Shown: positions 3,452 through 27,501 of the stretch, piece after piece
How the letters are laid out: each line of letters opens with the position of its first letter
Numbering within the stretch: the stretch's first letter is position 1
IMG/VR virus record: IMGVR_UViG_3300042896_001364
Span: 1 to 34,069 of that record
Origin: a virus
Reading direction: 5' to 3' (one strand)
DNA: 34,069 bases
Made by a program: the position numbers and the translations under genes
Notes under the pieces: generated by a model
The model's database searches: none
Told to the model about the DNA's origin: nothing
What the model saw: only the letters and a program-made list of their open reading frames with translations

Positions 3452-4416
3452 GCCACAAGGCGACCGTCTGGGCGCTCGACCAGCGCAGCATCAAGGGCAC
3501 AACCAAGATCGTGCTTTGGCACCTTTGCGACCGCTACAACCCCGAGCATGGCTGTTTTCCGTCGCAGGAACTGCTGGCCTATGACTCTCAGGTCAGCCGC
3601 TCCGGCCTGAACAACCATCTCAGCCATCTGGAAAAATGCGGTCTGATGCGACGCGAACGGCGCATCGATCCGATCACCAAGCGCCAGATGTCGACGCGGT
3701 ACATCCTCGGCTTTGAGGAGGGGTTTACGCCTGCACCTGCGGCTGCGACCGCCGAAAGGCCGGAAGAAATCTCATCCTCGGGGGAAAAGCCGTGTCCAGA
3801 TTTTGCACACGGAGCCGAGTCCAAAAAACAGGCCGCCCCGTGTCCAGAAAATGGCCCGAGCCGTGTCCAGAATTTGGACACTAACCTTGTAAGAGAACCC
3901 CTAAGAGAACCTGTAAAGGAGGAGGAGGAGGAAGACGCTGCGCGCGACGCTGATTTTGATCGGTTCTTCGTGGAGTTGCTGACCGCGCTGGGCTTCGCCG
4001 CAAACGCCGCCCTTCCCGCTTGGTGGCAGGGCTGGCCTGCACGGGTGCATATTCGGCGCTGGCGGCATGACCTCGGACTGTCGGAGGCCCGGATCATTCA
4101 GACCGCGAGGGAAACTCGCAGTGATCATCCCAATCCGCCTGACGGTCCCAAGGCCCTCGATAGGTTCATGGAACGCGCAGCCCAGCGCGATGCCCAAAAG
4201 GCGGCGACCTCGACCAGTTCCGGCAAAGCCAAGCGCCGCCGCAAGGCGGAAACCCAAGCGCCGAACAACGATGATGAAGTGGCGGTCTACTACGCCGCAA
4301 TCGTGAACTCGGACGATTATTTTCCCCGCGATTTGTTCGGCAGCCGCACCTGCGGATTGATGTTAGCGCGTGGCCTCGTCACGCCGGAACGCCTGCGCCA
4401 GCGGATGGGACAGTGA
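3448..4416 (+). CDS. Phage replication initiator, lambda-O-like, with winged helix N-terminus
   Basis: The 322-residue protein begins with a winged helix-turn-helix of the HTH_36 type (about residues 1-92; recognition region around CFPSQELLAYDSQVSRSGLNNHL). Then comes a low-complexity linker, an acidic run EEEEEDAAR near residue 155, and a C-terminal domain that may contact a helicase loader. The DNA encoding the linker carries four iterons (3790-3881). The origin-within-initiator-gene layout is known from lambda O. The start overlaps the stop of the nuclease gene, and the stop overlaps the GTG start of the methyltransferase. The N-terminal domain is similar to that of the product of 26265-27125, while the C-terminal parts differ. 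The assignment as initiator rests on domain, position and iterons together. Confidence 0.8.
   Translation: MSHKATVWALDQRSIKGTTKIVLWHLCDRYNPEHGCFPSQELLAYDSQVSRSGLNNHLSHLEKCGLMRRERRIDPITKRQMSTRYILGFEEGFTPAPAAATAERPEEISSSGEKPCPDFAHGAESKKQAAPCPENGPSRVQNLDTNLVREPLREPVKEEEEEDAARDADFDRFFVELLTALGFAANAALPAWWQGWPARVHIRRWRHDLGLSEARIIQTARETRSDHPNPPDGPKALDRFMERAAQRDAQKAATSTSSGKAKRRRKAETQAPNNDDEVAVYYAAIVNSDDYFPRDLFGSRTCGLMLARGLVTPERLRQRMGQ
3790..3881 (+). repeat. Iteron array inside the initiator gene, putative replication origin of element 1
   Basis: There are four copies of a CCGTGTCCA-type unit starting at 3790, 3815, 3838 and 3861, with spacings of 25, 23 and 23 nt. The best copy is a palindrome, TGTCCA-N5-TGGACA. 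The first and third copies are slightly imperfect and the second is degenerate. Two direct repeats of TAAGAGAACC (3890-3899 and 3902-3911) lie just downstream in a stretch of lower G+C that could serve as the unwinding element. Confidence 0.7.
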
Positions 4417-6359: not shown

Positions 6360-6439
6360 AAGCCCCCAATGGCGATTTTATTGGTCGCATGCCGTCTTCT
6401 TCATCGCTAGGTTGACGAAAAATATTGTCTGGGGTGCAT

Positions 6440-9400: not shown

Positions 9401-11314
9401 CTGACCGACACCTTCCAGATGTATGAAAGCGACGACCTGATCTCGCACTACATGCCCGACAACTCGGAACGGCGGAAGCGGCAGAAGGCTACGGATATCC
9501 GCGTGATCGTGGGCAACCCACCCTATTCGGCGGGGCAAGATAGCGCAAACGACAACAATGCCAATGTGAGCTATGCGACTCTTGATGGGCGCATCCGAGA
9601 TACTTATGCAGCGCGTTCAACAGCAACCCTCAAGAGCGCGCTTTACGACAGCTATATCAGGTCGATCCGCTGGGCGTCGGATCGGATTGGCGATGCTGGT
9701 GTTGTGGGGTATGTTACCAACGCTGGCTGGGTCGATGGAAATGCGGCAGATGGCCTGCGCGCATGTTTGGCGGAAGAGTTCAGCAACCTTTACATTTTTC
9801 ATTTGCGTGGAAACCAACGCACTAGCGGGGAGCTATCTCGTCGTGAGGGAGGCAAGATATTTGGCTCAGGTAGCCGCGCACCGATCGCCATCAGCATTTT
9901 CGTCAAGAACCCCAATGCCACCGAGTATGGTCGTATCCACTTTCATGATATCGGAGACTACCTCGATCAGAAACAGAAGCTTGCGATCGTTCGAGATTTC
10001 GCAAGCATCGGAGGAATATCTAGAGCCCAAGGTTGGTCGCAAATCACTCCTGATGAGCGCAACGATTGGCTAAATCAGAGAGACTCGTCTTTTGACCGCT
10101 ATTTACCAATGGGAGATCGGTCTGGTTCTCCGGCCATTTTCTCCGCATTTTCTCGCGGATTTCTTACGAGTCGAGATGCTTGGTGCTATAATTCCTCCAA
10201 AATTCAACTTTGCGAAAAACTGATTTCGATGATTGCGGAATACAATAGGCAGCTTGTAAAGGTCGGTTCAGGTGACATCGAGTATATTGCAGACTCTGAT
10301 CCAACCAAAATTTCTTGGTCGGCCGATTTAAAACGACGTCTTGGAGCCCGGCAGAAGATCGAATTCAACGGCGCTGCAATAGCACTTTCAGTTTACCGGC
10401 CGTTCACAAAACAATTAGTCTGTACAGATAAGAACTTGATCGAACGCCCTGGCAAACTATTGGATATGTTTCCCACCCAACAGATAGAAAATCGCGTGAT
10501 TTCTATTAAGGGAAATTGGAGGAAAGACGGTCAGATCGCGTTAATGTTGGACGGCATATATGCGGATCAAACTGACACAGGGGCGCAGTGCTTCCCTCTA
10601 TACCTTTATAATCAGCAGCACGAGGAACCCAGTGGCCTCTTCGGTGGCCAAACGTCCGACAATCAACGTCGCGACGGGATCACTGACGCTGGCCTGAAGC
10701 ACTTCCAGGACGCTTATCCCGGCGAGACGATCAACAAGGAAGACCTCTTCTACTACGTCTACGGCCTGCTGCATTCCGAGGATTACCGCGCGAAATACGC
10801 CGACAACCTGTCCAAGGAACTGCCCCGCATCCCCCGCGTGAAAACCGCCGCCGACTTCTGGGCCTTCAGCCGCGCGGGCCGCGAGCTCGGCGACCTGCAT
10901 GTGAACTATGAAACGGTCGAACCCTACCCCGTCACGATCAAGCAAGGCGACCTGCGCCTGGCCGACATCAAGAACCCCGAGGCCTTCTACCGCGTCACCA
11001 AATGGGCCTTCGGCAAGACCGGCAAGGAAAAGAACAAGACCACCGTCATCTACAACGCCAACATCACCATGCAGGACATCCCGTTGGAAGCCTATGACTA
11101 CGTCGTCAATGGCAAGCCCGCGCTGGAATGGGTGATGGAACGCCAGGTGGTCAAGACCGACAAGGATAGCGGCATCGAAAACGACGCTAACCGCTACGCC
11201 ACCGAAACCGTCGGCAACCCCGCCTACCCGCTGGAACTGTTCCAACGCGTCATCACCGTCAGCCTGCGAACCATCGAAATCGTGCGCGGCTTGCCGAAGC
11301 TGGAGGTAATGTGA
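6440..11314 (+). CDS. Type ISP restriction-modification enzyme (nuclease-helicase-methyltransferase)
   Basis: This single polypeptide of 1624 residues both restricts and methylates DNA, like LlaGI and LlaBIII (about 1570-1580 aa). Domain order: Mrr-like nuclease with Asp66 and QAK (81-83); SF2 translocase with Walker A ACGTGKT (about 195), ICDEAH (about 320), MTATP (about 360) and QSVGRVMR (about 580); a helical coupler; an N6-adenine methyltransferase with motif I DPFTGTGTF (about 920) and NPPY (about 1028); then a C-terminal target-recognition region. The recognition part (about 9530-10640) has visibly lower G+C than its flanks, as expected for an exchanged specificity domain. ATG 6440 is preferred (GGGG 5 nt upstream); TTG 6425 is possible. 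No separate specificity subunit is needed. Confidence 0.9.
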   Translation: MTAIDRILQSYRDAAVTEREKGTYFERLGLAFFLNDPVQSEEYEAVWTWSEWAKANGRDGKDVGIDLVAKLRNEDGFAAIQAKFYAADTRIQKANIDSFISASGKEPFRRRVVLDTTEREWGSNAEEMIRDQAIPVVRIGLTDLRESRINWTIFEARGEIVLSAKKTLMPHQRDALADVSKGLAAADRGKMIMACGTGKTFTSLKIAEAIAGKGKRVLFMVPSLALMSQTVREWTNDTETPIRAFAVCSDAHVGKRRKSTDDIAEIEIHDLAFPATTDPVKVAEKAGADDPERMTVIFSTYQSIVTLTRAQEAGLPDFDLIICDEAHRTTGATLDGDEESNFVKIHSNDNVRARKRLYMTATPRIFGDNVRSKAEEVGADLVSMDDSALFGEILFHRGFGWAVQNGLLTDYKVIVLAMDEGLVSAAVQKRLGDAGSELVLDDATKIIGCYKALTKIDLKIDVAADPRPMHRAIAFAKDIRSSKLIRDEFAAVVDEYLGQDSLIESDEPTSHLQCEIEHVDGTFNAKTRGALLDWLKADAGDNTCRILTNARCLSEGVDVPALDAIMFLHPRKSQIDVVQSVGRVMRTSEATGKKMGYVILPVGVPAGVPAEQALADNERYRVVWQILNALRAHDERFDSTINKMSLGQDISDTIEIVGITAESEELKSVTAVVQNLPNKTKAAGSGIGSGGGGNGDDVIEGPEPTQTEMTFSIDEFSRAIMAKIVKKCGTRDYWEDWSASIAEIAKNHITRLTALLKDPDTEARRAFDAFLGELRDDLNDTISESDAIEMLAQHIITRPVFETLFEGHKFTAENPVSRAMQRVLDVLNEANLDKESRDLEKFYASVKLRSQGITDPQAKQKLIVELYDKFFRRAFPRTTEKLGIVYTPVEIVDFIIHSVNEVLQSEFGQTLGSPGVHIIDPFTGTGTFITRLLQSGLIAPEEMEHKFRHEIHANEIVLLAYYIAAINIEAVYNGLQGGDYVPFEGICLTDTFQMYESDDLISHYMPDNSERRKRQKATDIRVIVGNPPYSAGQDSANDNNANVSYATLDGRIRDTYAARSTATLKSALYDSYIRSIRWASDRIGDAGVVGYVTNAGWVDGNAADGLRACLAEEFSNLYIFHLRGNQRTSGELSRREGGKIFGSGSRAPIAISIFVKNPNATEYGRIHFHDIGDYLDQKQKLAIVRDFASIGGISRAQGWSQITPDERNDWLNQRDSSFDRYLPMGDRSGSPAIFSAFSRGFLTSRDAWCYNSSKIQLCEKLISMIAEYNRQLVKVGSGDIEYIADSDPTKISWSADLKRRLGARQKIEFNGAAIALSVYRPFTKQLVCTDKNLIERPGKLLDMFPTQQIENRVISIKGNWRKDGQIALMLDGIYADQTDTGAQCFPLYLYNQQHEEPSGLFGGQTSDNQRRDGITDAGLKHFQDAYPGETINKEDLFYYVYGLLHSEDYRAKYADNLSKELPRIPRVKTAADFWAFSRAGRELGDLHVNYETVEPYPVTIKQGDLRLADIKNPEAFYRVTKWAFGKTGKEKNKTTVIYNANITMQDIPLEAYDYVVNGKPALEWVMERQVVKTDKDSGIENDANRYATETVGNPAYPLELFQRVITVSLRTIEIVRGLPKLEVM

Positions 11315-13825: not shown

Positions 13826-14590
13826 TCAGGCAGTTTCGGTGGATTTTCGGGTGCGGCTTTGCGCCAGACGATAGCTCTCGCCGTTCATCTCGAGGATGTT
13901 GACGTGGTGCGTCAGCCGGTCGAGCAGCGCGCCGGTCAGGCGTTCGGTGCCGAAGGTTTCGGTCCATTCATCGAACGGCAGGTTGCTGGTGATCAGCGTG
14001 GCCCCGCGCTCGTAGCGCTGCGAGATCATCTCGAACAGCAGTTCGGCGCCGGTTTTGGAGAGGGGCACGAAGCCCAACTCATCGATGATGAGCAGCTTGA
14101 CTGCGGCCATCTGTTTCTGGACGCGAAGTAGCCGGCGCTCATCGCGGGCCTCCATCAGTTCATTGACCAGCGCGGCGGCGGTGGTGAAGCTGACCGACAT
14201 CCCCTTCTGGCAGGCGGCCAGACCCAGGCCGAGGGCGATATGGGTCTTGCCGGTTCCACTCGGCCCGAGGGCGATGACGTTCTCCCGCCGATCGATCCAT
14301 TCGCAGCGGGCCAGTTCCAGCACCTGCATCTTGTTGAGTTTGGGGATCGCCTTGAAGTCGAAGCTGTCAAGACTCTTGGTGGCCGGGAACTTCGCCGCCT
14401 TGATGCGGCGCTCCACCATCCGCCGCTCACGGTCGATCAGTTCCAGCTCGACCAGGCGCGCCAGGAACTGGACATGGTCCCGCCCCTCGGCCGCGCATTG
14501 GCGCGCCAGCTTCTCGTATTCCCGCAGGAAGGTCGGCAGCTTCAGGGTCTTCAGATGATGGACAAGCAGGATCTTCGGGGCCTCGGTCAT
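13826..14590 (-). CDS. istB: IS21 helper ATPase IstB
   Basis: This AAA+ ATPase of 254 residues is related to DnaC and helps the IstA transposase choose and capture target DNA. Walker A is GPSGTGKT (109-116) and Walker B is LLIIDELG (166-173). The N-terminal helical region is the usual IstB lead-in. The start overlaps the istA stop by ATGA at 14587-14590, the classical translational coupling of IS21 elements. The length is normal and no disruption is seen. Confidence 0.95.
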   Translation of the reverse strand: MTEAPKILLVHHLKTLKLPTFLREYEKLARQCAAEGRDHVQFLARLVELELIDRERRMVERRIKAAKFPATKSLDSFDFKAIPKLNKMQVLELARCEWIDRRENVIALGPSGTGKTHIALGLGLAACQKGMSVSFTTAAALVNELMEARDERRLLRVQKQMAAVKLLIIDELGFVPLSKTGAELLFEMISQRYERGATLITSNLPFDEWTETFGTERLTGALLDRLTHHVNILEMNGESYRLAQSRTRKSTETA

Positions 14591-16098
14591 TCCGCCGCCT
14601 CCGACATCAGCGCCATGTAGCTGGCGGTCGAGGTCGCCTCCACATTCGCGCGCGGCAGATAGGGATAGCTTGCAAGGTCGAGCTTCGGCGGTCGGCTTTC
14701 GATCCGACAGAGCAGCAGGTGCTTGACCGCGTCGAAGCCCACCGCACGCAGTCGAAGGGCATCCTTGATCGCTCCGTGCAGATCATTGAGGCCAAAGGTC
14801 TCGAGCAGGCGCAGAACCTGGACATACTCGCGCCGCCCCATCTTGAGCATGCGCGCCTCCATGAGGCGACGCAGGGTATGAAACTCTTCGGGCAGGTTCC
14901 ATTCTGCCAAGGGTGCCGCTTGATCCAAGGCATTGATCTTGCGCTCGATCAGGGGAAGGTAATGGACCGGATCGAAGACGGCGTCCTCGCGCGCGTAGCA
15001 GCGTGGGTGCCGGGCAATCACCTCCCCGCGGCAGCCGATCACGACCTGGTCGACATAGCCCCGCACCCACACATCCTGATGGCCATAGGCAACCGGCACC
15101 GAGTAGTCGTTGGTGTCATAGCGCACAAGCGACTGTGAACTGACCTTGCCGTTGGCCTGGTCGCAGGCCTCGAATGGCGCGCCAGGCAGGTGCTTCATCG
15201 CGGTCAGATCACGCTGCAGCCGATCGCCGATCGGCTCCTTGTGACTGCGCAGAATGTCGTGCTGGCGCTTGCGGCACTGGGCTTCGAGGTCGGCGTTGAA
15301 CTCCACCCAACTGGCAAAGCGGGGGATGGGCACCATGAAGTTGCGCCGTGCGTAACCCACCAGCCCCTCGACGCTGCCCTTGTCGTTGCCCTTGCCCGGC
15401 CGCCCATACCGATCCCGGAACAGGTAATGCGACTGCAGGGCGCTGAACAGCGTGGCGCGCTTGCGCGTCCCGTCCGGCAGGATCTTCGACACAAGGCAGC
15501 GGTCGTTGTCATAAAGCGCCGTTTGCGGCACCCTGCCGAAGAAGGCAAAGGCATGGACATGGCCATCCATCCAGGCCTCCGCCGTCGCCGCAGGATACGT
15601 CCGCACGAAACAGCTATCGCTGTGCGGCAGGTCCATGACGAAGAAATGGGCCTTCTGCTCGACGCCGCCGATGATCACAACGGCTTCGCCAAAATCCGCC
15701 TGCGCATGCCCCGGCGGGTGGACGAGCGGCACGAACATCTCCCGGCCCCGCAGCTCCCGATCCCGAACGTAATCCTTGATGATCGTGTATCCGCCGGTGA
15801 AACCATGCTCTGCCCGTAAACGGTCGAATACACGCTTGGCGGTATGATGCTGCTTGCGATGAACATCCTTGTCGCCGTCGAGCCAGCTGTCGATGATCTC
15901 GGTGAACCCATCCAGCTTCGGCCGCTTGACAGGAGACGTCCGCCGGTAGCCGGGGGGGATCGAAAACGCCATGGCCTTGTCGACAGTGTCGCGCGAAATG
16001 TTGAAATGGCGCGCCGCAGCGCGCTTGCTCATGCCGTCGGCACAGGCCAGACGAACCTTCAGGTAAAGTTCCACGGTGTAGATCTCCAAACCCTCCAT
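14587..16098 (-). CDS. istA: IS21 transposase IstA
   Basis: This 503-residue transposase has an N-terminal helix-turn-helix (about residues 8-45) that would bind the terminal repeats. The DDE catalytic core has Asp135 in AQADFGEA, an Asp in YDNDR (197 or 199), and Glu244 in KGSVEG. A C-terminal beta-barrel-type region follows. It appears full length and intact, so the IS could still be active. Transcription runs leftward away from hsdR, starting about 95 nt inside the right end. Confidence 0.95.
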   Translation of the reverse strand: MEGLEIYTVELYLKVRLACADGMSKRAAARHFNISRDTVDKAMAFSIPPGYRRTSPVKRPKLDGFTEIIDSWLDGDKDVHRKQHHTAKRVFDRLRAEHGFTGGYTIIKDYVRDRELRGREMFVPLVHPPGHAQADFGEAVVIIGGVEQKAHFFVMDLPHSDSCFVRTYPAATAEAWMDGHVHAFAFFGRVPQTALYDNDRCLVSKILPDGTRKRATLFSALQSHYLFRDRYGRPGKGNDKGSVEGLVGYARRNFMVPIPRFASWVEFNADLEAQCRKRQHDILRSHKEPIGDRLQRDLTAMKHLPGAPFEACDQANGKVSSQSLVRYDTNDYSVPVAYGHQDVWVRGYVDQVVIGCRGEVIARHPRCYAREDAVFDPVHYLPLIERKINALDQAAPLAEWNLPEEFHTLRRLMEARMLKMGRREYVQVLRLLETFGLNDLHGAIKDALRLRAVGFDAVKHLLLCRIESRPPKLDLASYPYLPRANVEATSTASYMALMSEAAE

Positions 16099-16149: not shown

Positions 16150-18801
16150 CTATCCCGCCGCTACCGTGGCCGAGTTTTGCACCGCCGTTCTCAGGATCAG
16201 CGACAGATCATCGAACTTGGAAATGACATCGCTTTCCTCGGCCCGAATATAGGTGTCGATCAAATGTCGCATCGCAGGCTCGTACATCTTGAGATCGATG
16301 TAATCGCCGCTTGCCAGCTTGACCTCGTTTCGCACCTTTTCGAAGTGATCGACGTCCGCCTTGATGGCTGCGGCTTCAATTTCGGAATAGCCTGCCTCAG
16401 CCATTTCATTCGCAACATCGGCGTAGGCCCGCAAAAGCGCGGCCGCCAACCGATAAAGGGCGAGACGCTTCGGCTCATTCTCTTTCAACGCGTCTTTGTC
16501 GGCCGTATCTTCGGCGCAGAAGAACCGCAGATAGGCGTGGGTGTCGCGCGGCGCATCGACCGGCTCGCACAGGGCCCTGACCGCCTCAAGCGCATCGTCG
16601 AGGCGTTCCCGAGCCATCTTCAGGCGATCGGTCAGCAGCCCGGCTACATCTTCCTTGTCATAGCCGTCGAAAGCCTCGGTCGTGTAATCCTTGATCGAGG
16701 TCTCAAGGCTTTTGAACAAGTCCTTGTAGTCAATGACATAGCCATATTCCTTGTCGTCGCCGTCCAGCCGGTTGACCCGGCAGATCGCCTGGAACAGGCC
16801 ATGATCCTGCATCTTCTTGTCGATGTAGAGGTAAGTTGCCGACGGCGCATCGAATCCAGTGAGAAGCTTGTCCACCACGATCAGCAGCTTCATCTGCCCG
16901 GGCTCGTCGATGAACTTCTTCTTGGCCTGTTTCTCGAATGCCTCGGCCTCCTGACCGCCCAGCATCTTGGTGTAGATGTCGTACTGGCGCAGCCGTTCGG
17001 TCAGCCCCTCACCGCTTTCTTCGCCTTTGATATCGCTGGCCGACGGCTTGTAAGACGTCACAATCGCGCATTTACCTGCCAAATCGGTCTTGTCGAACAG
17101 CTCGTAGAACTTGCAAGCCTGATAGATGCTTGACGACACCAGCATCGCATTGCCGTGGCCGCTTTTCAGCCGGTCCTTCAACTCCATATCCATCAGGATA
17201 TCGCCGACGATCTTTTCCAGCCGCGATTGGCTCGACAGCACCTTTTGCATGGTGCCCCAGCGCTGCTTCAGCTGCGCCTTGGCCAAATCGTTCAGGCCTT
17301 TGGTTTTCAATTCGAACCATTGATCGATCTTCGCCTGCGACGTCACGTTCTGGTCGATATCCCGCGCCTCATAGCGCAGATCAAGCACGACGCCGTCCGC
17401 GACCGCCTCGTTGAATTTGTAGGTGTGGATGTAGGGGCCAAACACTTCGAGGCTGGTTTGCTTGTCCTCTTTCAGCAGCGGCGTTCCGGTGAAACCGATG
17501 AACATCGCATTCGGCAGGATCGCCTTCATCGCCTTGTGCAGATCGCCACTTTGCGAGCGGTGGCATTCGTCGACAAAGACGTAAACGTCGCCCTTGGCGC
17601 GAAAATCCTTCGGCAGCGCCTGGCGCACCTCTTCGATGTAGCCGCTGACATCAGCGTCAGACTCTTCCTTGCCACCGAACTTGTGGATCAGCGAACACAG
17701 CAGCCATGGGGCCTCTGCATTCAACTGCGCTATAAGTTCGGCGCCGCTTTTGCTGCGCAGGATGTCCTCGTTGACGCCCTTGAAAACCTTCTCGATCTGT
17801 TCGTCCAATTCTGTGCGGTCGGTGATGACAAGCACCCGCGCGCCCTTCACATTCTCCCGTATCCACTTGGCCAGCCAAACCATTGTCAGGCTTTTGCCGG
17901 ACCCTTGGGTGTGCCAGATGATCCCGCCCTCGCGCCGCCTGATCTGCTCCTGGGCCGCATGCACCCCAAAATACTGGTTGTGACGGCAGGTCTTCTTGAC
18001 GCCCGCGTCATACACCAAGAAATTATGGATCATGTCGAGGAAGCGATCCTTGGCGCACAGGCGCAGCAACGCGGTGTCCAATCGCGAAACGCCCGGCACG
18101 TCGGCCAGATAACGCTGGTCACGCTTGTCGATGCCCTCGCGGTAAGCCGGGTTCTCTTCGCGCCAGGCCAGCCAATACTTCTCCTTCGTCTCGATCACGC
18201 CATAGCGCAGCCCCTCGGTGTCATTCCCCGCCATGATCATCTGCATGGTGGTGAAGAACCGCTGGATGAACATCGGCTTTTGGTTGTCGAGGTTCTGGCG
18301 GATGCCTTCCGATACCGAAACGGTCGAACGCTTCAGTTCCAGCACGCCCAGCGCGATGCCGTTGACATAGATCACCACATCCGGCCGCTTGCCGAAGGTT
18401 TTGCCATCCGAGGTCGCGGCCTTGATCGCCACCTCTTCGGCAATGGCAAAATGGTTGGCCTCTGGGTCTTTCCAGTCGATCAGCCAGACGGTCTGGGTCT
18501 GCTCGCCCACATCCGCCTTCACCTTCACCCCATAGCGCAGCAGGTCGTAAACGTCGCGATTGATGTCATAAAGGCTGCGCGATTGGTCCGTCGCCACCTT
18601 GGTCAGATGCGCGATGGCCTTGGTGATTAGCGCGGGGGCGTAGCCCATGGCCTCAAGGAACGGGCGCAGGTAGGTGGGCTCAATATTCGCGTTGCCCACC
18701 CGGTCGATCCAGTTGCCCAGATGGTCATAACCAAGCTGGTCCTGAAACAGCTGCACGACCCGCGCCTGTGTCCGCTTTTCGATCTGGCCCACGGTGCTCA
18801 T
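16150..18801 (-). CDS. hsdR: Type I restriction subunit HsdR, C-terminally truncated by IS21
   Basis: This is the endonuclease/translocase subunit of a type I R-M complex. In 883 residues: PD-ExK nuclease with Asp141, Glu155 and Lys157 (LELK); Walker A TQGSGKS (298-304); DECH box (411-414); FTGTP (438-441); later helicase motifs GFDAPSATYLYIDKK and QAICRVNR; then the start of the DUF3387-type C-terminal domain. Family members usually have 1000 or more residues. Here homology stops at KFDDLSLI; the last 14 residues and the TAG are encoded by the IS21 right terminal repeat (16150-16193). The missing part normally helps dock HsdR on the methylase core, so restriction may be lost while modification continues. 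The start overlaps the previous stop (ATGA at 18798). Confidence 0.9.
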   Translation of the reverse strand: MSTVGQIEKRTQARVVQLFQDQLGYDHLGNWIDRVGNANIEPTYLRPFLEAMGYAPALITKAIAHLTKVATDQSRSLYDINRDVYDLLRYGVKVKADVGEQTQTVWLIDWKDPEANHFAIAEEVAIKAATSDGKTFGKRPDVVIYVNGIALGVLELKRSTVSVSEGIRQNLDNQKPMFIQRFFTTMQMIMAGNDTEGLRYGVIETKEKYWLAWREENPAYREGIDKRDQRYLADVPGVSRLDTALLRLCAKDRFLDMIHNFLVYDAGVKKTCRHNQYFGVHAAQEQIRRREGGIIWHTQGSGKSLTMVWLAKWIRENVKGARVLVITDRTELDEQIEKVFKGVNEDILRSKSGAELIAQLNAEAPWLLCSLIHKFGGKEESDADVSGYIEEVRQALPKDFRAKGDVYVFVDECHRSQSGDLHKAMKAILPNAMFIGFTGTPLLKEDKQTSLEVFGPYIHTYKFNEAVADGVVLDLRYEARDIDQNVTSQAKIDQWFELKTKGLNDLAKAQLKQRWGTMQKVLSSQSRLEKIVGDILMDMELKDRLKSGHGNAMLVSSSIYQACKFYELFDKTDLAGKCAIVTSYKPSASDIKGEESGEGLTERLRQYDIYTKMLGGQEAEAFEKQAKKKFIDEPGQMKLLIVVDKLLTGFDAPSATYLYIDKKMQDHGLFQAICRVNRLDGDDKEYGYVIDYKDLFKSLETSIKDYTTEAFDGYDKEDVAGLLTDRLKMARERLDDALEAVRALCEPVDAPRDTHAYLRFFCAEDTADKDALKENEPKRLALYRLAAALLRAYADVANEMAEAGYSEIEAAAIKADVDHFEKVRNEVKLASGDYIDLKMYEPAMRHLIDTYIRAEESDVISKFDDLSLILRTAVQNSATVAAG

Positions 18802-19541
18802 GACGGAACCTGCTTCCTGTTAACTTGCGGCAGCGGCGCCCATATCCAGCCCTCGGACACCGGGGCATCTGCGGGCGGTGCTTCCAGCCAGTCGCGCCGC
18901 AGCACAAAGGCATGGGCGATATAGGCACAGACCTCGGCGTCCATGATATCCGCCTTTGGGCCGTTGATGGGCTTGTCGAGTTCGGGAAACACACCCCGCG
19001 CCCGCGCCCGGCAGAGCGCGGGATAGGTTTCGATCAGGGTCATCTGCGCGCCATCCGACCAGACGCCCGGCGCGATCATCTGGGTGAAGCGGGCGACGGC
19101 GTGCATGGCCTTGGTCGACTGGCTGCCGATCATGTCCTTGACGGCCGACAGCGAGGTCAGGCCTTCCTCGTCAAGGCGCCGTTCAGTGAAGCGGTAAAGA
19201 TAGGGGTTCTCATAAGACCGGCCGATCTGGTCCAGCGGTACGCCGCCGGTGATCAACTGGGCGAAAGCGGCCGGAAAGCCGAGCGGGGCGTCGATGGCGA
19301 TTGTGGCTTTGGCTGTGCTTGCAAGCGGGGGCAGCTTGCACAGGGCGAGGATCGCCGTCAGGAAATCGGTGCCTGTGGTTGAGGCGTTGATGGTCAGACG
19401 CAGGTTGCCGCGCCAGGGCTGGCCGATCCGCGCGCCCGCGCCATCCAGCACCACCAGCGCATCGCGGCTGGTGGGGTTCTTGTCGCAGTTCCAGCCGCCG
19501 ACATCCCAGCCGATGAACACCTGATCTCCGCTCGCCGTCAT
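18798..19541 (-). CDS. DUF429 (RNase H-fold) protein embedded in the hsd operon
   Basis: The 247-residue product fits DUF429, a family predicted to have an RNase H-like fold and possibly nuclease activity. Visible landmarks are GWDVGG (11-16), IDAPLGFP (83-90), ETYPA (171-175) and an Asp-rich helix around Asp198-Asp201, spaced like an acidic active site. It overlaps hsdS (ATGA at 19538) and hsdR (ATGA at 18798), so all three are almost certainly co-translated, which implies a job linked to the restriction system. The biochemical function of DUF429 is not established. Confidence 0.75.
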   Translation of the reverse strand: MTASGDQVFIGWDVGGWNCDKNPTSRDALVVLDGAGARIGQPWRGNLRLTINASTTGTDFLTAILALCKLPPLASTAKATIAIDAPLGFPAAFAQLITGGVPLDQIGRSYENPYLYRFTERRLDEEGLTSLSAVKDMIGSQSTKAMHAVARFTQMIAPGVWSDGAQMTLIETYPALCRARARGVFPELDKPINGPKADIMDAEVCAYIAHAFVLRRDWLEAPPADAPVSEGWIWAPLPQVNRKQVPS

Positions 19542-20731
19542 ATCAGCCGCACCCGTCCGGTCAGCAGTTCCTGCATCATGCCCTGCTTGACCGCGCGAGC
19601 CTTGGCGGCCTGCGCCTCAAGCGCGGCGAGGTCGGCGTCCATGTCGGAAAGGACTTCGGCGATAGCGGTTTGTTCAGAGAGAGATGGGAAAGGAATAACA
19701 GTCTTCTTTGCCCCAGAAATCGTGTAAGTTCCAACGGTACTGCCACCCGCGGAGTCTCTGATTTGCCTCATGATTTCTTCGGTCAAGAAAAGCTGACGAA
19801 GAAAACTCGCAGACATTTTGCCACGAATCTTGAACCAAATAATATTGCCATCTTTGAAATAGAACTCTTGGTCACTCTCAACCACGAAAACGCGCCCAAG
19901 AGTCCCGACTCCCGTTACAAGCATATCTCCAACTTCCGGAACCCCAGAGTTGGCTTTGTGGGACTCATATAGATCGCGCGAGACAAACAGCTGATTTTCG
20001 ATAGCCTCATTGTCAGCCAGCAGGACAATCTCACGCGCTCGATAAAACGGCACGCCTTGGGTTTTCCATTCGCTCTGAAACACTCGCTTGCTTGAACCAA
20101 TATCAAAAATCTCGCCCAACCGCTTCACCTCCCACTCCCCCGAGAACCCCGGCAGGCGGGTTTTGCCGGTGAGGAGGTGTTGCATGGCGGCCTGCTTGAG
20201 GTCGCGCTTCTTAGCGATCATCCCCTCCAACGCCGCAATCAACCCATCCGCATCCGCCAACGCCGCCGCAATGGCGCGTTGTTCCTCCGGAGGTGGAGAT
20301 AGAAAATCTCTTTCCTTCAGAAACTTAAAGTGCCGATTGTATCCCGTTGCCTCAATTCCCCTGTGCTCCAATGCGAAGCTGTGAAAGGTTGCTGAGTGGC
20401 CTGATTTTGGGACAAGGATTTGCGTCCCATCAGCGCCAACAACGAAATCATGCAGCACTAACTTTACGATGCACGTGTGATCCCCGAAGATGATTACTCC
20501 GCCTTCAGGGACCGCAAATAGCTTTTCGGCGAAGTCAGAGTATCCTACGATGCGCTTCTGACCTTGATCCACAATCGGGAAAAGTCCCATTTCACGGTAT
20601 TCTGACGTCTGTATCTGATATGCCTTACTCGGAACCTTCCTGAAGACACTTTCGAAGTGCTGAACATCCCAATCTTCCGGAACAACCCCCACCTCAGTCT
20701 GCTTATACCCCGGCCTGATCTCCCCCTGCAT
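19538..20731 (-). CDS. hsdS: Type I specificity subunit HsdS
   Basis: The 397-residue specificity subunit recognises a bipartite target. Two target-recognition domains (about residues 15-150 and 200-345) are each followed by a conserved helical spacer. The repeats are EEQRAIAAALADADGLI...LLTGKTRLPGF and SEQTAIAEVLSDMDADL...LLTGRVRL. The ATG at 20731 is chosen because it lies just past the hsdM stop (20734) and begins with the family-typical GYKQTEVGVVPEDW; the open frame before it lies inside hsdM. Both recognition domains are visibly more AT-rich than the spacers, consistent with exchange of specificity domains. Confidence 0.92.
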   Translation of the reverse strand: MQGEIRPGYKQTEVGVVPEDWDVQHFESVFRKVPSKAYQIQTSEYREMGLFPIVDQGQKRIVGYSDFAEKLFAVPEGGVIIFGDHTCIVKLVLHDFVVGADGTQILVPKSGHSATFHSFALEHRGIEATGYNRHFKFLKERDFLSPPPEEQRAIAAALADADGLIAALEGMIAKKRDLKQAAMQHLLTGKTRLPGFSGEWEVKRLGEIFDIGSSKRVFQSEWKTQGVPFYRAREIVLLADNEAIENQLFVSRDLYESHKANSGVPEVGDMLVTGVGTLGRVFVVESDQEFYFKDGNIIWFKIRGKMSASFLRQLFLTEEIMRQIRDSAGGSTVGTYTISGAKKTVIPFPSLSEQTAIAEVLSDMDADLAALEAQAAKARAVKQGMMQELLTGRVRLI

Positions 20732-20733
20732 CG

Positions 20734-23175
20734 TCACGCCGCGAACCCCATCCGCTTCAGATGCGCCGCCACCTTGGCACTCAGCGCGTCCAGATCCTCG
20801 GCCAGTTTCGGCAGTGGCGTGGCATAGCGTTCCGCCAGCATCTTGACCCGCCGCGCCAGAGCCTGGCTCACGCGGTCCACCTCGGCCGCCACATCCGACC
20901 GCACCTTCGTGAGCCATTTGCCCTGTACCAGCAGCGCTTTGACCTGTTCCTCGGTCAGCTTGGCATATTGCGCCACCACCGCCGCATCCAATGCCGCCTG
21001 CGCCGCCTTGACCGCCGCATCGGCATCCGCCGCCGCTTCGATCAGCGACAGGCAGGTTTTCAACATCGCCCGCTCTTCGCCCGCCTCCTTGTCCAGACGT
21101 ATGTCGCGGGTCCGGTCCTTGACAGATTTCGCGGTCAGCTTGCCCTTGTCGGTCTTGGCCTCGAACAGCAACCCATCCTCGCCGCCATGTTCCTCGTCCA
21201 ACTCCTCCACCGCCCGCGCGGCCTCTTCGGCCTTGGCCTCCAACGCCTCCAGCGCGGCCTGTTCGGTGGCGAAGAACCGCGCCACGATCAGCGCGGGCGG
21301 GATCAGTTCCGCCTTCAGCTTTCGCCGCCCCAGCGTGATGTCGGGGGTTTCGGTGAACTTGCCCTCGGCATTCTTGACCAGTTCACGGATCACGCGCCCC
21401 GCCGCCCAGCCATCCTGCACAAGGATATAGGTGTCGTCCTGCATCACCTCGGCCCAATAGGTCATCAGGTGCTGATAGACGTCGTAGCCATCAATCAGCG
21501 GCACGGGTTTGAAGCGATCCAGCAGGTCTTCGGACAGGGTGGCGATCAGGGCCTTGGGATGGTCGCCAATGGCAATGCCGCGCAGCCGGTCGATATGGGC
21601 GGCTGACCAGGCATCGAACACCTCGGTCACGCGGGCGGTGAAGGCGGCAAACTCGGGGTGGTTCAGGATCGCGCCCTTGACCTCGGCCGCATCGACCAGC
21701 GGCGTCAGATAGCCCGGCCGATCCCCTGGGCCAAAGAGCGTGGCCCGAACGGCAGGCAGAACATCCCAGAACTCGGCCAGCGCATCGACATCGCGCACCG
21801 GGATGCCGCCCTTCAGATGCGCCTCGATGTCCTGCAGGTCTTCGGGTTCGGAACTGTCGATGTAACGCGGGATGTTCAGGTTGAAGCCGTGCTTTTCGAT
21901 CTCGGCCAGCGGCACCATGCGGGAATATTTGTCGATCTCGATCTGCTTGGTGAAGGCGTCGACGATCTTGTGCAGGTCCTGCGACCGCAGCCGGTTCTTG
22001 TTGCCGTCCTTCACGAAGCCCTTGGAGGCGTCGATCATGAAGATGCCAGTGCGGGCGTGGGCGTTTTCCTTGTCGATCACCACGATGCAAGCTGGGATGC
22101 CGGTGCCATAGAACAGGTTGGCAGGCAGGCCGATGATCCCCTTGATGTAGCCCTTCTTGATGATCTTCTCACGGATTTCGCTTTCGGCATTGCCGCGGAA
22201 GAGAACACCGTGCGGCAGAATGACTGCGCCTTTGCCGGTAGTTTTCAGCGAGGCGATGATATGGAGCAGATAGGCAAAGTCGCCGTTCTTGGCAGGGGGA
22301 ACACCGTAGTCAAAACGATCGTAGATGTCGTTTGCCGGATCAAGCCCGGTTCCCCAGGCTTTGTCCGAGAATGGCGGGTTGGCGACCACGAAGTCGAAGG
22401 TTTTCAGGGTGCCGTTGGGGTTCTTGAAATGCGGATTGGCCAACGTGTTGTCCCGCCAGATTTCCGCGGTCGGGCAGTCGTGCAGCACCATGTTCATTTT
22501 GGCGAGGGCGCGGGTGGCGACGTCTTTTTCCTGGCCGTAGATTGTGATGCCCGCTGGGGCTTCGTCGCGCGCCTTCAAGAGAAGTGAGCCGGAGCCGCAT
22601 GTTGGGTCGTAGATTGTCTGGTCCGGGCGGTTGGAAGCGCTGATGGCGATGGCCTTCGCCATGATTTTCGACACTTCGGATGGCGTGTAGAACTGTCCCT
22701 TGCTCTTGCCCGACTCAGTTGCAAAGTGGCGCATCAGGTATTCATAGGCATCGCCGAGGATGTCGTCGCCCTCGGCCCGGTTCTTGCGGAAATCAAGCTC
22801 AGGGCGGTTGAAAATCGCCACTAGGTTTGACAACCGATCGACCATTTCCTTACCAGTGCCGAGCTTCTCTTCCTCGTTGAAATCGGCAACGTCGATCACG
22901 CCCTTCAGGTCGTTCGCCTCGGCCAGCTTCGCAATAATGATGTTAATCTTCTCGCCGATTTCTTTGTCACCTTTCAGGGCAACCATATCGGCAAAGCTAC
23001 CACCCTCAGGGATTTCGATCAGACCGTCCGGATCGCCTGCATATTTGTCGGAGACGTATTTCACGAACAGCAAGACGAGGACGTAATCTTTGTATTGCGA
23101 GGCATCCATCCCGCCCCGAAGCGCGTCACAACTTGCCCAAAGCGAACTGTAGATTTCTGATTTCTTAACTGCCAC
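20734..23175 (-). CDS. hsdM: Type I N6-adenine methyltransferase subunit HsdM
   Basis: This is the methylase subunit of the HsdM2S complex. Motif I is DPTCGSGS (190-197), the catalytic motif is NPPF (266-269), and QFYTPSEVSKIM (161-172) is the usual pre-motif. The GTG at 23175 is chosen as start because family members begin AVKKSE-YSSLWASCD at this point; the ATG at 23229 has no ribosome site. With 813 residues it is longer than the classical 500-residue HsdM. The extra C-terminal 300 residues contain an Ala/Glu-rich coiled-coil-like stretch (around EALEAKAEEAARAVEELDEE). It is the first gene of the hsdM-hsdS-DUF429-hsdR operon. Confidence 0.93.
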   Translation of the reverse strand: MAVKKSEIYSSLWASCDALRGGMDASQYKDYVLVLLFVKYVSDKYAGDPDGLIEIPEGGSFADMVALKGDKEIGEKINIIIAKLAEANDLKGVIDVADFNEEEKLGTGKEMVDRLSNLVAIFNRPELDFRKNRAEGDDILGDAYEYLMRHFATESGKSKGQFYTPSEVSKIMAKAIAISASNRPDQTIYDPTCGSGSLLLKARDEAPAGITIYGQEKDVATRALAKMNMVLHDCPTAEIWRDNTLANPHFKNPNGTLKTFDFVVANPPFSDKAWGTGLDPANDIYDRFDYGVPPAKNGDFAYLLHIIASLKTTGKGAVILPHGVLFRGNAESEIREKIIKKGYIKGIIGLPANLFYGTGIPACIVVIDKENAHARTGIFMIDASKGFVKDGNKNRLRSQDLHKIVDAFTKQIEIDKYSRMVPLAEIEKHGFNLNIPRYIDSSEPEDLQDIEAHLKGGIPVRDVDALAEFWDVLPAVRATLFGPGDRPGYLTPLVDAAEVKGAILNHPEFAAFTARVTEVFDAWSAAHIDRLRGIAIGDHPKALIATLSEDLLDRFKPVPLIDGYDVYQHLMTYWAEVMQDDTYILVQDGWAAGRVIRELVKNAEGKFTETPDITLGRRKLKAELIPPALIVARFFATEQAALEALEAKAEEAARAVEELDEEHGGEDGLLFEAKTDKGKLTAKSVKDRTRDIRLDKEAGEERAMLKTCLSLIEAAADADAAVKAAQAALDAAVVAQYAKLTEEQVKALLVQGKWLTKVRSDVAAEVDRVSQALARRVKMLAERYATPLPKLAEDLDALSAKVAAHLKRMGFAA

Positions 23176-23444
23176 GAGGCCCCCGACTATTTTATTGACA
23201 CTACAGCCTGATGATTGGCCTTGATGCATTTGTTTTTCGACAGCAAGGCAGGTATCGCCAAGTCTTTGTGGCCCGGCCCAGCGTCAACCAGACCTCCCAA
23301 CCGACTGTTCTGCCTTCCGCATGCATCGTCGGCCTAGGCGTGGAGCGCCCTGCCGGAGATGCCCGGCCATTTGCAGTCAGATTGCCCGGTTGTGCAAGCC
23401 GCGGTTGACCTCGAAAGTCGCTTCATTGGCCCTTTTGGGCTGGA
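23176..23444. other. Junction between hsdM and element 2, likely attachment-site region
   Basis: The hsdM promoter must lie at the left of this 269-nt gap; a TAAAAT hexamer sits 12 nt before the GTG, but I see no matching -35. The end of the element 2 integrase lies on the right, so an att core would be expected here. No tRNA gene or tRNA 3' end and no repeat of another window segment was found. Confidence 0.4.
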
Positions 23445-24781: not shown

Positions 24782-24834
24782 GGGACCGGAATTTAGGGGG
24801 AAACCGGGGGAAACAAAAAGGCAATTAATCCGGT
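24782..24834 (-). promoter_or_regulatory. Regulatory repeat upstream of int (left copy of inverted pair)
   Basis: This 53-nt sequence is an inverted copy of 25671-25724, with 49 of 54 aligned positions identical and 33 of the first 34. It contains GACCGGAATT and two GGGGGAAAC units spaced 10 bp apart (one helical turn). Relative to the integrase it lies 65 nt before the start codon, in the same orientation as the other copy has to its own gene. The reading as a common promoter/operator is inference. Confidence 0.8.
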
Positions 24835-24892
24835 ACTTTTTGCGGCCCAATGCGGTTGTTTGCGGCCTCGCGCAGATTCGAGACCAACTGCG

Positions 24893-25486
24893 TCAGGCTG
24901 CCTTCAGGGCGTGCCAAATCACCTTGATCCGCTGCCGGATGGTGCTTTCGTCCGGCGCGGAACCGTGCGTGGAATTGGCGATAAACCACTCCTGCATCTC
25001 GACGATCAGCGCCGTCTGGGTGGCGGGGAGACCGTGATTGTGGATGCGCTTCATCACGGCGATGTGGAAGCCGTCCCAGTCATACTTTCCCGGTGCGCCG
25101 GGCCCAGCGCTGCGGGTCCGGTTGATCTCGTGAGCTTGCTCGAAGCGTTCTATTTCGTCGGCGGTGATCATGATGTCGGCGGCGGTGAACCGGACGCCGC
25201 GCTCGGGGTCCGTGATCGTCAACCAAACCGTGGTACTGGGACGACGGGCTTGTTTTACATAGACTTTCTTTGCAGCTTCGCCGAACGGGCGGAACAGCGG
25301 GCGGACCTCGCTCCCCGGCACGCTGAGCAAACCAGCGGCGGATTGGTCGCCAAATCGCACCTCCCTGAACGCCGCGACGAGATCGATTTCATCCGAAATC
25401 GCCCAGTCCACGATCTGTGTCGGACTGCACGTCCAGCGCCCAGAAGCCTCAAGAATCGTAAACAAACACCGCGCCGGAAACGCCAT
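24893..25486 (-). CDS. Hypothetical regulator-like protein, paralogue of the gene at 1300-1896
   Basis: This is a 197-residue protein of unknown function. The N-terminal region (WTCSPTQIVDWAISDEIDL, about residues 18-37) could be a helix-turn-helix. The C-terminal 70 residues match the element 1 paralogue (YDWDG, LPATQ, EMQEWF, DESTIRQRIKVIWHAL). It lies exactly between the two copies of the 54-bp regulatory repeat, so it is a good candidate for the protein that binds them or is controlled with them. A GAGGTAGGG run before the ATG at 25486 supports the start. Gene identity is firm; the regulatory role is inference. Confidence 0.75.
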   Translation of the reverse strand: MAFPARCLFTILEASGRWTCSPTQIVDWAISDEIDLVAAFREVRFGDQSAAGLLSVPGSEVRPLFRPFGEAAKKVYVKQARRPSTTVWLTITDPERGVRFTAADIMITADEIERFEQAHEINRTRSAGPGAPGKYDWDGFHIAVMKRIHNHGLPATQTALIVEMQEWFIANSTHGSAPDESTIRQRIKVIWHALKAA

Positions 25487-25670
25487 CCCTACCTCTTTTC
25501 GACCCCCAGTCTGACCGAGATTTCGCGACGTACGAAACCGGACCCCAGCCTCGCGGTGGGGTGATCATCTGGCGATTCTATTTGTGAACTGCTCTCCCCG
25601 AAGCTGTCAGAAGTCCCGGTTTGTTCCTATCAAAATCCGCAGCGGCGGTTCCGATTTCGGGGGATAAAAG

Positions 25671-25724
25671 ACCGGATTAATTACCCGGTTTGTTTCCCCC
25701 GGTTTCCCCCTGAATTCCGGTCCC
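25671..25724 (+). promoter_or_regulatory. Regulatory repeat upstream of the excisionase-type gene (right copy)
   Basis: This is the inverted partner of 24782-24834. It ends 69 nt before the ATG at 25794, compared with 65 nt at the integrase. It reads ACCGGATTAATTA, then two GTTTCCCCC units (25692 and 25702), then GAATTCCGGTCCC. The AATTCCGGTC core recurs in the element 1 palindrome at 2440-2473. Confidence 0.8.
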
Positions 25725-25793: not shown

Positions 25794-26063
25794 ATGAAAA
25801 ACATTGGCTTGAAGGCACCAGACGATACCGTGCCCGAGGTGGATACCGGCCTTCTGACCGGCTGGCTGGACCGCACCGACCTTGCCCGGGAACTGACCCT
25901 GTCGGTCGACACTCTGCAGCGCTGGGAGACCCGCCGGGTCGGACCGCCCTGCGTAAGGGTAGGCCGCAAGGTGCTTTACCGCATGGAGGCTGTCAGGGAC
26001 TGGCTGCGCGAACAGGAAGTCCGCAAGGCAGGCGTCAGCCGTGCCGTCGCCGGTCGGCGCTGA
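25794..26063 (+). CDS. Excisionase-type helix-turn-helix DNA-binding protein
   Basis: This 89-residue HTH_17/MerR-like protein is homologous to the product of 2554-2802. The core is WLDRTDLARELTLSVDTLQRW (about residues 23-43, two helices), then TRRVGPPC and the wing VGRKVLYR, followed by a helix around AVRDWLREQE. It has a strong ribosome site, GGAGG, 7 nt upstream of ATG 25794. The likely roles are directionality factor for the integrase or early repressor; the sequence cannot decide between them. It is first in a plus-strand operon running into the replication genes. Confidence 0.85.
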   Translation: MKNIGLKAPDDTVPEVDTGLLTGWLDRTDLARELTLSVDTLQRWETRRVGPPCVRVGRKVLYRMEAVRDWLREQEVRKAGVSRAVAGRR

Positions 26064-26268: not shown

Positions 26269-27125
26269 GCGTCCAGGCGATCACATGGGCGCTGGATTAT
26301 CCGGCAGGCAGCGTCACCGAAAAGGTGATCCTCCTCGTACTGGCGAATTATGCAAACGAATACGGCATCAGCTGGCCGTCGCAAAAGACCCTCGCCGATC
26401 AATCGGCCTGCACGGACCGGACCGTGCGCACGATCCTGAGCCGCCTCGAGGGGCAAGGCGTCGTGCAGCGGGTGACGCGCCGTCGCGATAACGGCTCGCG
26501 CCGCTCCGACATCATCCTGCTTTCCGCCTTCGAAGGGCGAAAACCAGCACCGCCGGGCATGTTCGACGGAGATCCCAATGACCCCTGCGAACAGGCGGAA
26601 AGGCGTTCCGCCAGCAGCCCCAACCGGAAGGAATTTCCGGGGGGCAACCGGAAAGGCTTTCCGCACCCCCCGGAAACAGCTTCCGCCCTTGATACCTCAA
26701 AGATACTAAAAAGCGCTTCGCTTCGTCAGCAGCCAGAGTCTCGCAGGGCCTGCCTTGCCGTAGCGGGCCCGGGTCTGGACCGGGAAGCAGAGGCCAGCAG
26801 CATTTCGGCATTCGAGATCGCCCGCTGGATTGAGGCGGGGTGCGACCTTGCGCTCGACATCCTGCCGGTGATCGCCGCGAAAACCCGCGATGCCCGCTCT
26901 GCCCCGATCCGGGGCTGGTCGTTCTTCACCCCCGCCATTCTGGAAGCCAAAGCCCGCCGCCAAATGCCCCTGCCCCAACCAAAGGAAGTTGCTGATGAAC
27001 ACCCAAGCCCCCCACGAAAAGCCAAGCACCACAAATCCACTGCCCGCGATAGCAGCAATGCCTGGAACGCCGCTGTTGAAAAAGCTGATCGGGCACGGGC
27101 CGCGCAGACCGACCCCGACGCCTGA
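26265..27125 (+). CDS. Phage replication initiator, lambda-O-like, element 2
   Basis: The 286-residue protein has an HTH_36 winged helix at residues 1-90 (WPSQKTLADQSACTDRTVRTILSRLEGQGVV). Then comes a linker encoded by a palindromic iteron array (26596-26685), then a region with an FEIARWIEAGCDL...RSWSFF-like helical domain, and a basic tail. It is similar to the element 1 initiator in the N-terminal domain and layout, while linker and C-terminus have diverged. The ATG overlaps the preceding stop. Its last 131 nt are overlapped by the next gene in another frame. Confidence 0.8.
   Translation: MSVQAITWALDYPAGSVTEKVILLVLANYANEYGISWPSQKTLADQSACTDRTVRTILSRLEGQGVVQRVTRRRDNGSRRSDIILLSAFEGRKPAPPGMFDGDPNDPCEQAERRSASSPNRKEFPGGNRKGFPHPPETASALDTSKILKSASLRQQPESRRACLAVAGPGLDREAEASSISAFEIARWIEAGCDLALDILPVIAAKTRDARSAPIRGWSFFTPAILEAKARRQMPLPQPKEVADEHPSPPRKAKHHKSTARDSSNAWNAAVEKADRARAAQTDPDA
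26596..26685 (+). repeat. Palindromic iteron array inside the initiator gene, putative origin of element 2
   Basis: Four copies of CGGAA-N5-TTCCG occur at 26596-26610, 26625-26639, 26649-26663 and 26671-26685 (steps of 29, 24 and 22 nt). Every copy keeps both arms exactly while the 5-nt centre varies. An AT-richer stretch (about 26690-26715) follows directly, as expected for an unwinding element. Confidence 0.8.
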
Positions 27126-27501
27126 GGAGATCGCGCTGATCCAGCCTGTGACCAAGCTGCTGGCGGCCTCCCTGATCCCCGCCAAGCCCGCACGCGCGGC
27201 GCAACTGATCACCCGGCTGATCGGGCATTACCCGCAGCAGGCGATGGCAGACGATATCCGTGCCGGGATCGCCGAAGACTGGCTGGAGGATCTGGCGCAT
27301 CTGCCCGAGGACGTGATCGACGCGGCCTGCGCAGGTTGGCGAAGGGCCGAGAACAAATTCGCACCGACGCCCGGCCAGTTTCTGGCCATCGCCAACCCGA
27401 TCGTCACAATCCGCCGGTTTCTGGCCCAGCAAGGGGCGCAGATCACGGGCTTGACCGATGCCAAGGCTGCACAACCAGTGGTCCGGAGGGAGGCGCTATG
27501 A
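26995..27501 (+). CDS. Hypothetical protein in the helicase-loader position
   Basis: This is a 168-residue protein with a Pro-rich N-terminus and a helical body (PEEIALIQPVTKLL, DWLEDLAHLPEDVIDAACAGW, FAPTPGQFLAIA). I recognise no named family. Its place directly after the O-like initiator corresponds to lambda P, so a helicase loader or other replisome factor is a reasonable guess. ATG 26995 has a GGAAG site upstream but makes the gene overlap the initiator by 131 nt; ATG 27058 would reduce this to 68 nt. The stop overlaps the next ATG (27498). Confidence 0.65.
   Translation: MNTQAPHEKPSTTNPLPAIAAMPGTPLLKKLIGHGPRRPTPTPEEIALIQPVTKLLAASLIPAKPARAAQLITRLIGHYPQQAMADDIRAGIAEDWLEDLAHLPEDVIDAACAGWRRAENKFAPTPGQFLAIANPIVTIRRFLAQQGAQITGLTDAKAAQPVVRREAL

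Follow-up and report, generated by a model that had tools for sequence, protein, structure and literature searches.

The window analysed here is a stretch of 34,069 nucleotides (nt) from the IMG/VR virus record IMGVR_UViG_3300042896_001364. It carries two elements, each with a gene for a putative replication initiator, and the present work concerns the initiator gene of element 2 and the palindromic array that lies inside it. The open reading frame (ORF) is predicted to encode an HTH_36 winged-helix, "O-like" replication initiator. PF13730 (HTH_36) was matched at residues 18–65 with an E-value of 1.2e-11 and 44.6 bits, the curated cut-off being 25. The PHROG matches were to replication initiation and O-like families (PHROG_1032, 1e-22; PHROG_270, 2e-18; PHROG_391, 4e-18). 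An AlphaFold2 (AF2) model computed from element 2 and 24 relatives gave a winged helix, and the recognition helix was placed at residues 51–63 in both AF2 models. The predicted local distance difference test score (pLDDT) was below 50 at residues 104–155. The protein is laid out as a winged-helix DNA-binding domain (residues 1–90), a disordered linker (104–155) and a helical C-terminal domain. No solved homologue was found in PDB sequence searches.

An earlier note on this DNA had described four CGGAA-N5-TTCCG palindromes, with identical arms and variable centres, in the linker of the initiator gene. The four copies are present and exact, no two share a centre, and they occupy codons 111–140, within the predicted disordered linker. 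The span first assigned to the array, 26596–26715, was too long, the last copy ending at 26685. The exact CGGAANNNNNTTCCG occurs at these four sites and nowhere else in the window (expected 0.11), and none of 100 dinucleotide shuffles reached four copies. The palindrome-array score of the gene was 42, and the highest among 300 shuffles was 25. When the whole window was searched for perfect palindromes with arms of 5–7 and spacers of 2–11, the element 2 array was the only same-arm cluster with at least three copies within 250 bases. The copies span two reading frames and specify different peptides (AERRSA, RKEFP, RKGFP and PETASA); therefore, it is the DNA and not the peptide that is conserved. 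Directly after the array lies a 30-nt candidate unwinding element of 67% A+T, compared with a window mean of 39%, which places it in the top 0.5% of 30-nt windows.

Element 1 carries an initiator of the same family, whose DNA-binding domain is about 31–34% identical to that of element 2 (blastp; ungapped identity). Its gene also contains an array, GTGTCCA-N5-TGGACAC (iterons a, c and d in Table 1), with a score of 24 that no shuffle attained. The remaining copy has decayed, mostly to one half-site. The earlier statement that the two elements share the same copy number is consequently only loosely true: three copies are clear in element 1, and the fourth is degenerate.

Table 1. Coordinates of the initiator genes, iterons and adjoining features in the window.
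Feature	Position	Strand	Remarks
Element 1 replication initiator (putative), 322 amino acids	3448..4416	+	Same family; PF13730 E 1.2e-11, PHROG O-like
Element 1 iteron a	3792..3810	no strand	GTGTCCA-GATTT-TGCACAC
Element 1 degenerate copy	3817..3835	no strand	GAGTCCA-AAAAA-CAGGCCG; inner 15 bases with 3 mismatches
Element 1 iteron c	3840..3858	no strand	GTGTCCA-GAAAA-TGGCCCG
Element 1 iteron d	3863..3881	no strand	GTGTCCA-GAATT-TGGACAC
Element 1 A+T-rich stretch beside array	3888..3917	no strand	60% A+T, top 2.6% of 30-nt windows
Element 2 replication initiator (putative), 286 amino acids	26265..27125	+	PF13730, PHROG O-like matches, AF2 model
Recognition helix codons, residues 51–63 (D51 R52 T53 V54 R55 T56...)	26415..26453	+	AF2, arm covariation
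Thr56 codon of element 2	26430–26432	+	Within recognition helix
Element 2 iteron 1	26596..26610	no strand	CGGAA-AGGCG-TTCCG
Element 2 iteron 2	26625..26639	no strand	CGGAA-GGAAT-TTCCG
Element 2 iteron 3	26649..26663	no strand	CGGAA-AGGCT-TTCCG
Element 2 iteron 4	26671..26685	no strand	CGGAA-ACAGC-TTCCG
A+T-rich stretch, candidate unwinding element	26689..26718	no strand	Directly after element 2 array

Homologues were collected by scans of viral contigs and genomes, which gave several hundred loci with 143 distinct binding domains; a scan of the viral contigs with the single protein P0002 gave just two relatives. The statistics were computed on 98 initiators with strong arrays. HTH_36 proteins without arrays (e.g., L397, L402 and L405) were left unscored, and L360 was excluded because its reading was unreliable. 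Also excluded were L048 and L049, whose best arrays have even spacers. Both are actinobacterial relatives whose in-gene palindromic arrays are strong and have centres of 4 nt, and such an even centre suggests a different dimer spacing.

In-gene palindromic arrays were found in almost all close relatives, and the recognition helix and the arm sequence vary together. Helices of the TDRTVRT type go with CGGAA arms (element 2, L038, L052, L063 and L064), as does the helix of the distant L046 (LTDRAVRN). GERTVRR is paired with CGGCC, SERKLRN with CGGCA, and K[ST]VER with CCGAC or CAGAC. SRSGLNN (element 1 and L005) goes with GTCCA; SRSTLN[DE], SISALN[DE] and SRATLNR go with GTCCG, CTCCG and GTCTC, respectively. 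The relatives of element 2 retain the 24- and 22-nt spacings while the letters of all copies shift together, and in L038, 62% identical to element 2, the 29/24/22-nt spacing is identical.

The strongest association was that of Arg at residue 56 with C at arm position −3, which held without exception: C was found in 27/27 initiators with Arg56 and in 0/71 of the others. With the helix left out of the tree, the eight gains or losses were all concordant (p = 2.3e-14 among 7028 residue–base pairs). Concordance was complete on each of four trees (8/8 or 13/13), with 45 distinct helix motifs represented, and the result was unchanged, with no violation, at every array-score cut-off of at least 14. 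Asn, Thr and Ser at residue 56 are associated with A at −3; Asp and Glu are associated with G in element-1-type proteins and with A in two others. Both element 2 (Thr56) and element 1 (Asn56) have A at −3, as expected from the rule. Next in rank came A at −4, associated with T50 and D51 (p = 6e-6), and then G at −6, associated with R55. The rule was then applied to new genes. It was obeyed by 10/10 phage genes with strong arrays (one with Arg) and by 23/23 genes from two bacterial orders (seven with Arg; L407 duplicates L047), giving a combined 32 further initiators, all in agreement.

Family structure swamped the plain mutual information computed for every domain column against the arm bases, and the tree-based test was therefore adopted. 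When co-change of any residue with any base was scored, the signal was weaker, with helix columns 53, 51, 49 and 52 ranked at the top. In partial Mantel tests both the helix (0.34) and the rest of the domain (0.41) carried signal (p = 0.0005 for both). For binding domains less than 35% identical, arm bases were predicted correctly in 61% of cases from the nearest helix, compared with 45% from the nearest rest-of-domain and 33% at random. For the −3 base the corresponding values were 74%, 44% and 25%. The earlier note had proposed that initiator and origin co-evolve, and that recognition helix and arm be compared across HTH_36 initiators. That comparison has now been made; the lack of correlation that the note named as a refutation was not observed, and the co-variation is strongly supported by the sequences of the 98 arrays, the four trees and the 32 new genes.

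Six genes (L358–L362 and L365) were chimeric, with an element-1-type binding domain (57–64% identical) joined to an element-2-type C-terminal domain (39–51%). The readable arms, those of L358, L359, L361 and L365, were all of the element-1-type GTCCA. As the chimeras pair the element-1-type domain with element-1-type arms, binding domain and origin would travel together. Judged from these sequences, the DNA-binding domain together with its iterons apparently forms a 5′ cassette that moves apart from the C-terminal domain; domain and iterons, being contiguous, may be swapped jointly by recombination.

We conclude that the four palindromes are very probably origin iterons, placed in the linker of the initiator gene and bound by the gene's own product through a few helix positions, as in phage lambda. 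From the covariation we infer initiator binding and, beyond it, a dimer geometry, unwinding and helicase recruitment, as follows. An initiator dimer would place one recognition helix on each half-site of a single palindrome, and four dimers would sit side by side on the array. The nucleoprotein complex may then melt the adjoining A+T-rich stretch, and the C-terminal domain could bring in a helicase or a helicase loader. A handful of residues in the helix would set the specificity: position −3 would be read by residue 56, where Arg requires C (a G on the complementary strand), while −4 would depend on residues 50/51 and −6 on residue 55. For Arg to contact a G of the opposite strand is a standard mode of major-groove recognition. 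More generally, it seems probable that HTH_36/O-like initiators follow a simple residue-to-base code across phages of many bacterial groups, in which Arg56 needs C at −3 and further bases are set by residues 50/51 and 55. In that case the helix sequence by itself could suffice to read off, and to re-assign, origin specificity, which would be spread by the 5′ cassettes of domain and iterons.

Several points weigh against these conclusions. The A+T-rich stretch of element 2 is short and moderate. The ORF downstream of the initiator (26890–27501, start perhaps at 26995) matched nothing in Pfam and, in PHROG, only PHROG_34007, weakly; no helicase-loader domain was recognised in it with Pfam or PHROG. 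The binding domain of element 2 is HTH_36, whereas that of lambda O is PF04492, which gave no match to the element 2 protein at E ≤ 1 (lambda O itself, 5.7e-36); by hand alignment, lambda O seems not to follow the Arg56 rule. Outside −3, the base in the arm depends on context; D51, for example, occurs with three different bases at −4 (A, T or C). The tree test takes branches as independent, and a single clade, the element-1 type, accounts for over half of the sequences.

The earlier note had explained the different arms of elements 1 and 2 by selection for insulation, i.e., co-resident elements would diverge in their iterons so that neighbours do not cross-initiate. Arms and helix do differ between the two elements, and they differ in some other co-resident pairs (e.g., L006/L030 and L034/L340). 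However, identical arms were found in 9/17 co-resident pairs, a small sample unmatched for relatedness, including L021/L339 on a single contig and the element-2-type L357/L363 in genome G389. Moreover, the arms of each element recur in relatives from other records, GTGTCCA in L005 and CGGAA in L038, L052 and L061–L064. The pairs that differ are simply those with diverged binding domains, and the arms of elements 1 and 2 differ because their domains share so little identity. We therefore consider insulation improbable. Genome G389, one of those taken from the Paracoccus family, has at least four such initiators (L357, L363, L364 and L365), two of them with equal arms.

Slightly less probable again is a role of the palindromes as autoregulatory operators, bound by the protein mainly to control its own transcription, with replication beginning elsewhere. 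The covariation speaks of protein–DNA recognition and is silent on what follows binding; the likely promoter lies upstream of the array, and RNA polymerase could be stopped by a complex bound there. Against operators stand the annotation of the family as replication initiation, the geometry, which is like that of the proven lambda origin, and the A+T-rich stretch adjoining the array. Shared ancestry alone, without recognition, is a very unlikely source of the residue–base correlation: family does confound most of the correlations of arm columns with protein columns, but Arg56 and C at −3 changed together on the helix-free tree and on the others, and the rule is kept inside the family of element 1, inside that of element 2, and in new, unrelated phages. 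A role at the RNA level or a by-product of linker composition can practically be dismissed: CGGAA-N5-UUCCG can fold into short 5-bp transcript hairpins and the linker is compositionally biased, but neither folding nor peptide bias is adequate for copies in two reading frames whose arm letters follow a DNA-reading helix over at least eight changes and 45 helix motifs.

Other features of the window were also noted. AlpA/excisionase-like HTH_17 genes (2554–2802 and 25794–26063) lie a few hundred bases upstream of each initiator, in similar order. A 74-nt imperfect inverted repeat (24782–24855 and 25651–25724; 74% complementary, core GGGACCGGAATTTAGGGGGAAACCGGGGGAAAC) brackets a minus-strand ORF at 24893–25486 with no assigned function. 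Element 1 contains two restriction-modification systems (6425–11314 and 16150–23229), a single-chain Type ISP enzyme and a type I HsdM/S/R system, and an IS21 transposase (14587–16098).

In each of these genes a protein and its target are a few hundred bases apart, and genomes therefore yield many natural protein–DNA pairs. With about 130 clear pairs and no exception among them, the rule would make origin specificity in phages and small plasmids predictable from sequence and testable at the bench. The iteron arrays retain their spacing while the letters of all copies change with the helix. The novelty rests in the residue–base rule, of which no description was found in the literature searched (most subscription journals were outside its reach); an in-gene, lambda-like origin is of a known kind.

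Among known systems, the families PHROG 1032, 270 and 391 and the HTH_36 initiators of the Paracoccus yeei plasmids pYEE7/8 (PMC6209633) share the Pfam domain and the annotated role with element 2. Neither in-gene iterons nor a recognition rule for HTH_36 initiators was described in the literature searched. Foldseek matches included 4pql, 4pt7 and the N-domain of DnaD (2v79), with E-values of 0.008–0.05. Like element 2, these have a winged-helix N-domain, but the PDB sequence search gave no sequence-level match to them. We take 4pql and 4pt7 to be staphylococcal RepA_N plasmid initiators. In pSK41, the iterons lie inside the repA gene.

The phage-inducible chromosomal island-like element (PLE) satellites of Vibrio cholerae provide a further comparison. 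In swap experiments, replication occurred only with the cognate pair of RepA and origin, and the pressure proposed for swapping was an origin-targeting nuclease, not insulation from neighbours (PMC8263062). A matched binding domain and origin is also what the chimeric genes suggest, although PLE RepA belongs to the RepA_N family and its origin is intergenic.

The closest parallel is ori-lambda, in which O dimers bind four iterons, each a 19-bp inverted repeat, that lie midway along gene O and adjoin an A+T-rich region (PMC3985674, PMC7466680). Applied to lambda gene O, our algorithm recovered all four iterons of the annotation (arms of 7 nt, N5 centres) at gene nt 348–434; those of element 2, also with N5 centres, lie at gene nt 331–420. 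Like lambda, element 2 has four palindromic iterons in the gene, between an N-terminal binding domain and the C-terminal domain, and a modest A+T-rich region adjoins the array; lambda binds one dimer per iteron. The arms of element 2 (CGGAA) are shorter, and no P-like loader was recognised next door. PHROG_391 links the two, with an element-2-like N-terminal half fused to a lambda-O-like C-terminal half. Given the shared geometry and this link, yet a different binding domain, the element 2 array is, by analogy, an origin that would work like ori-lambda in a sister family, ordinary in kind.
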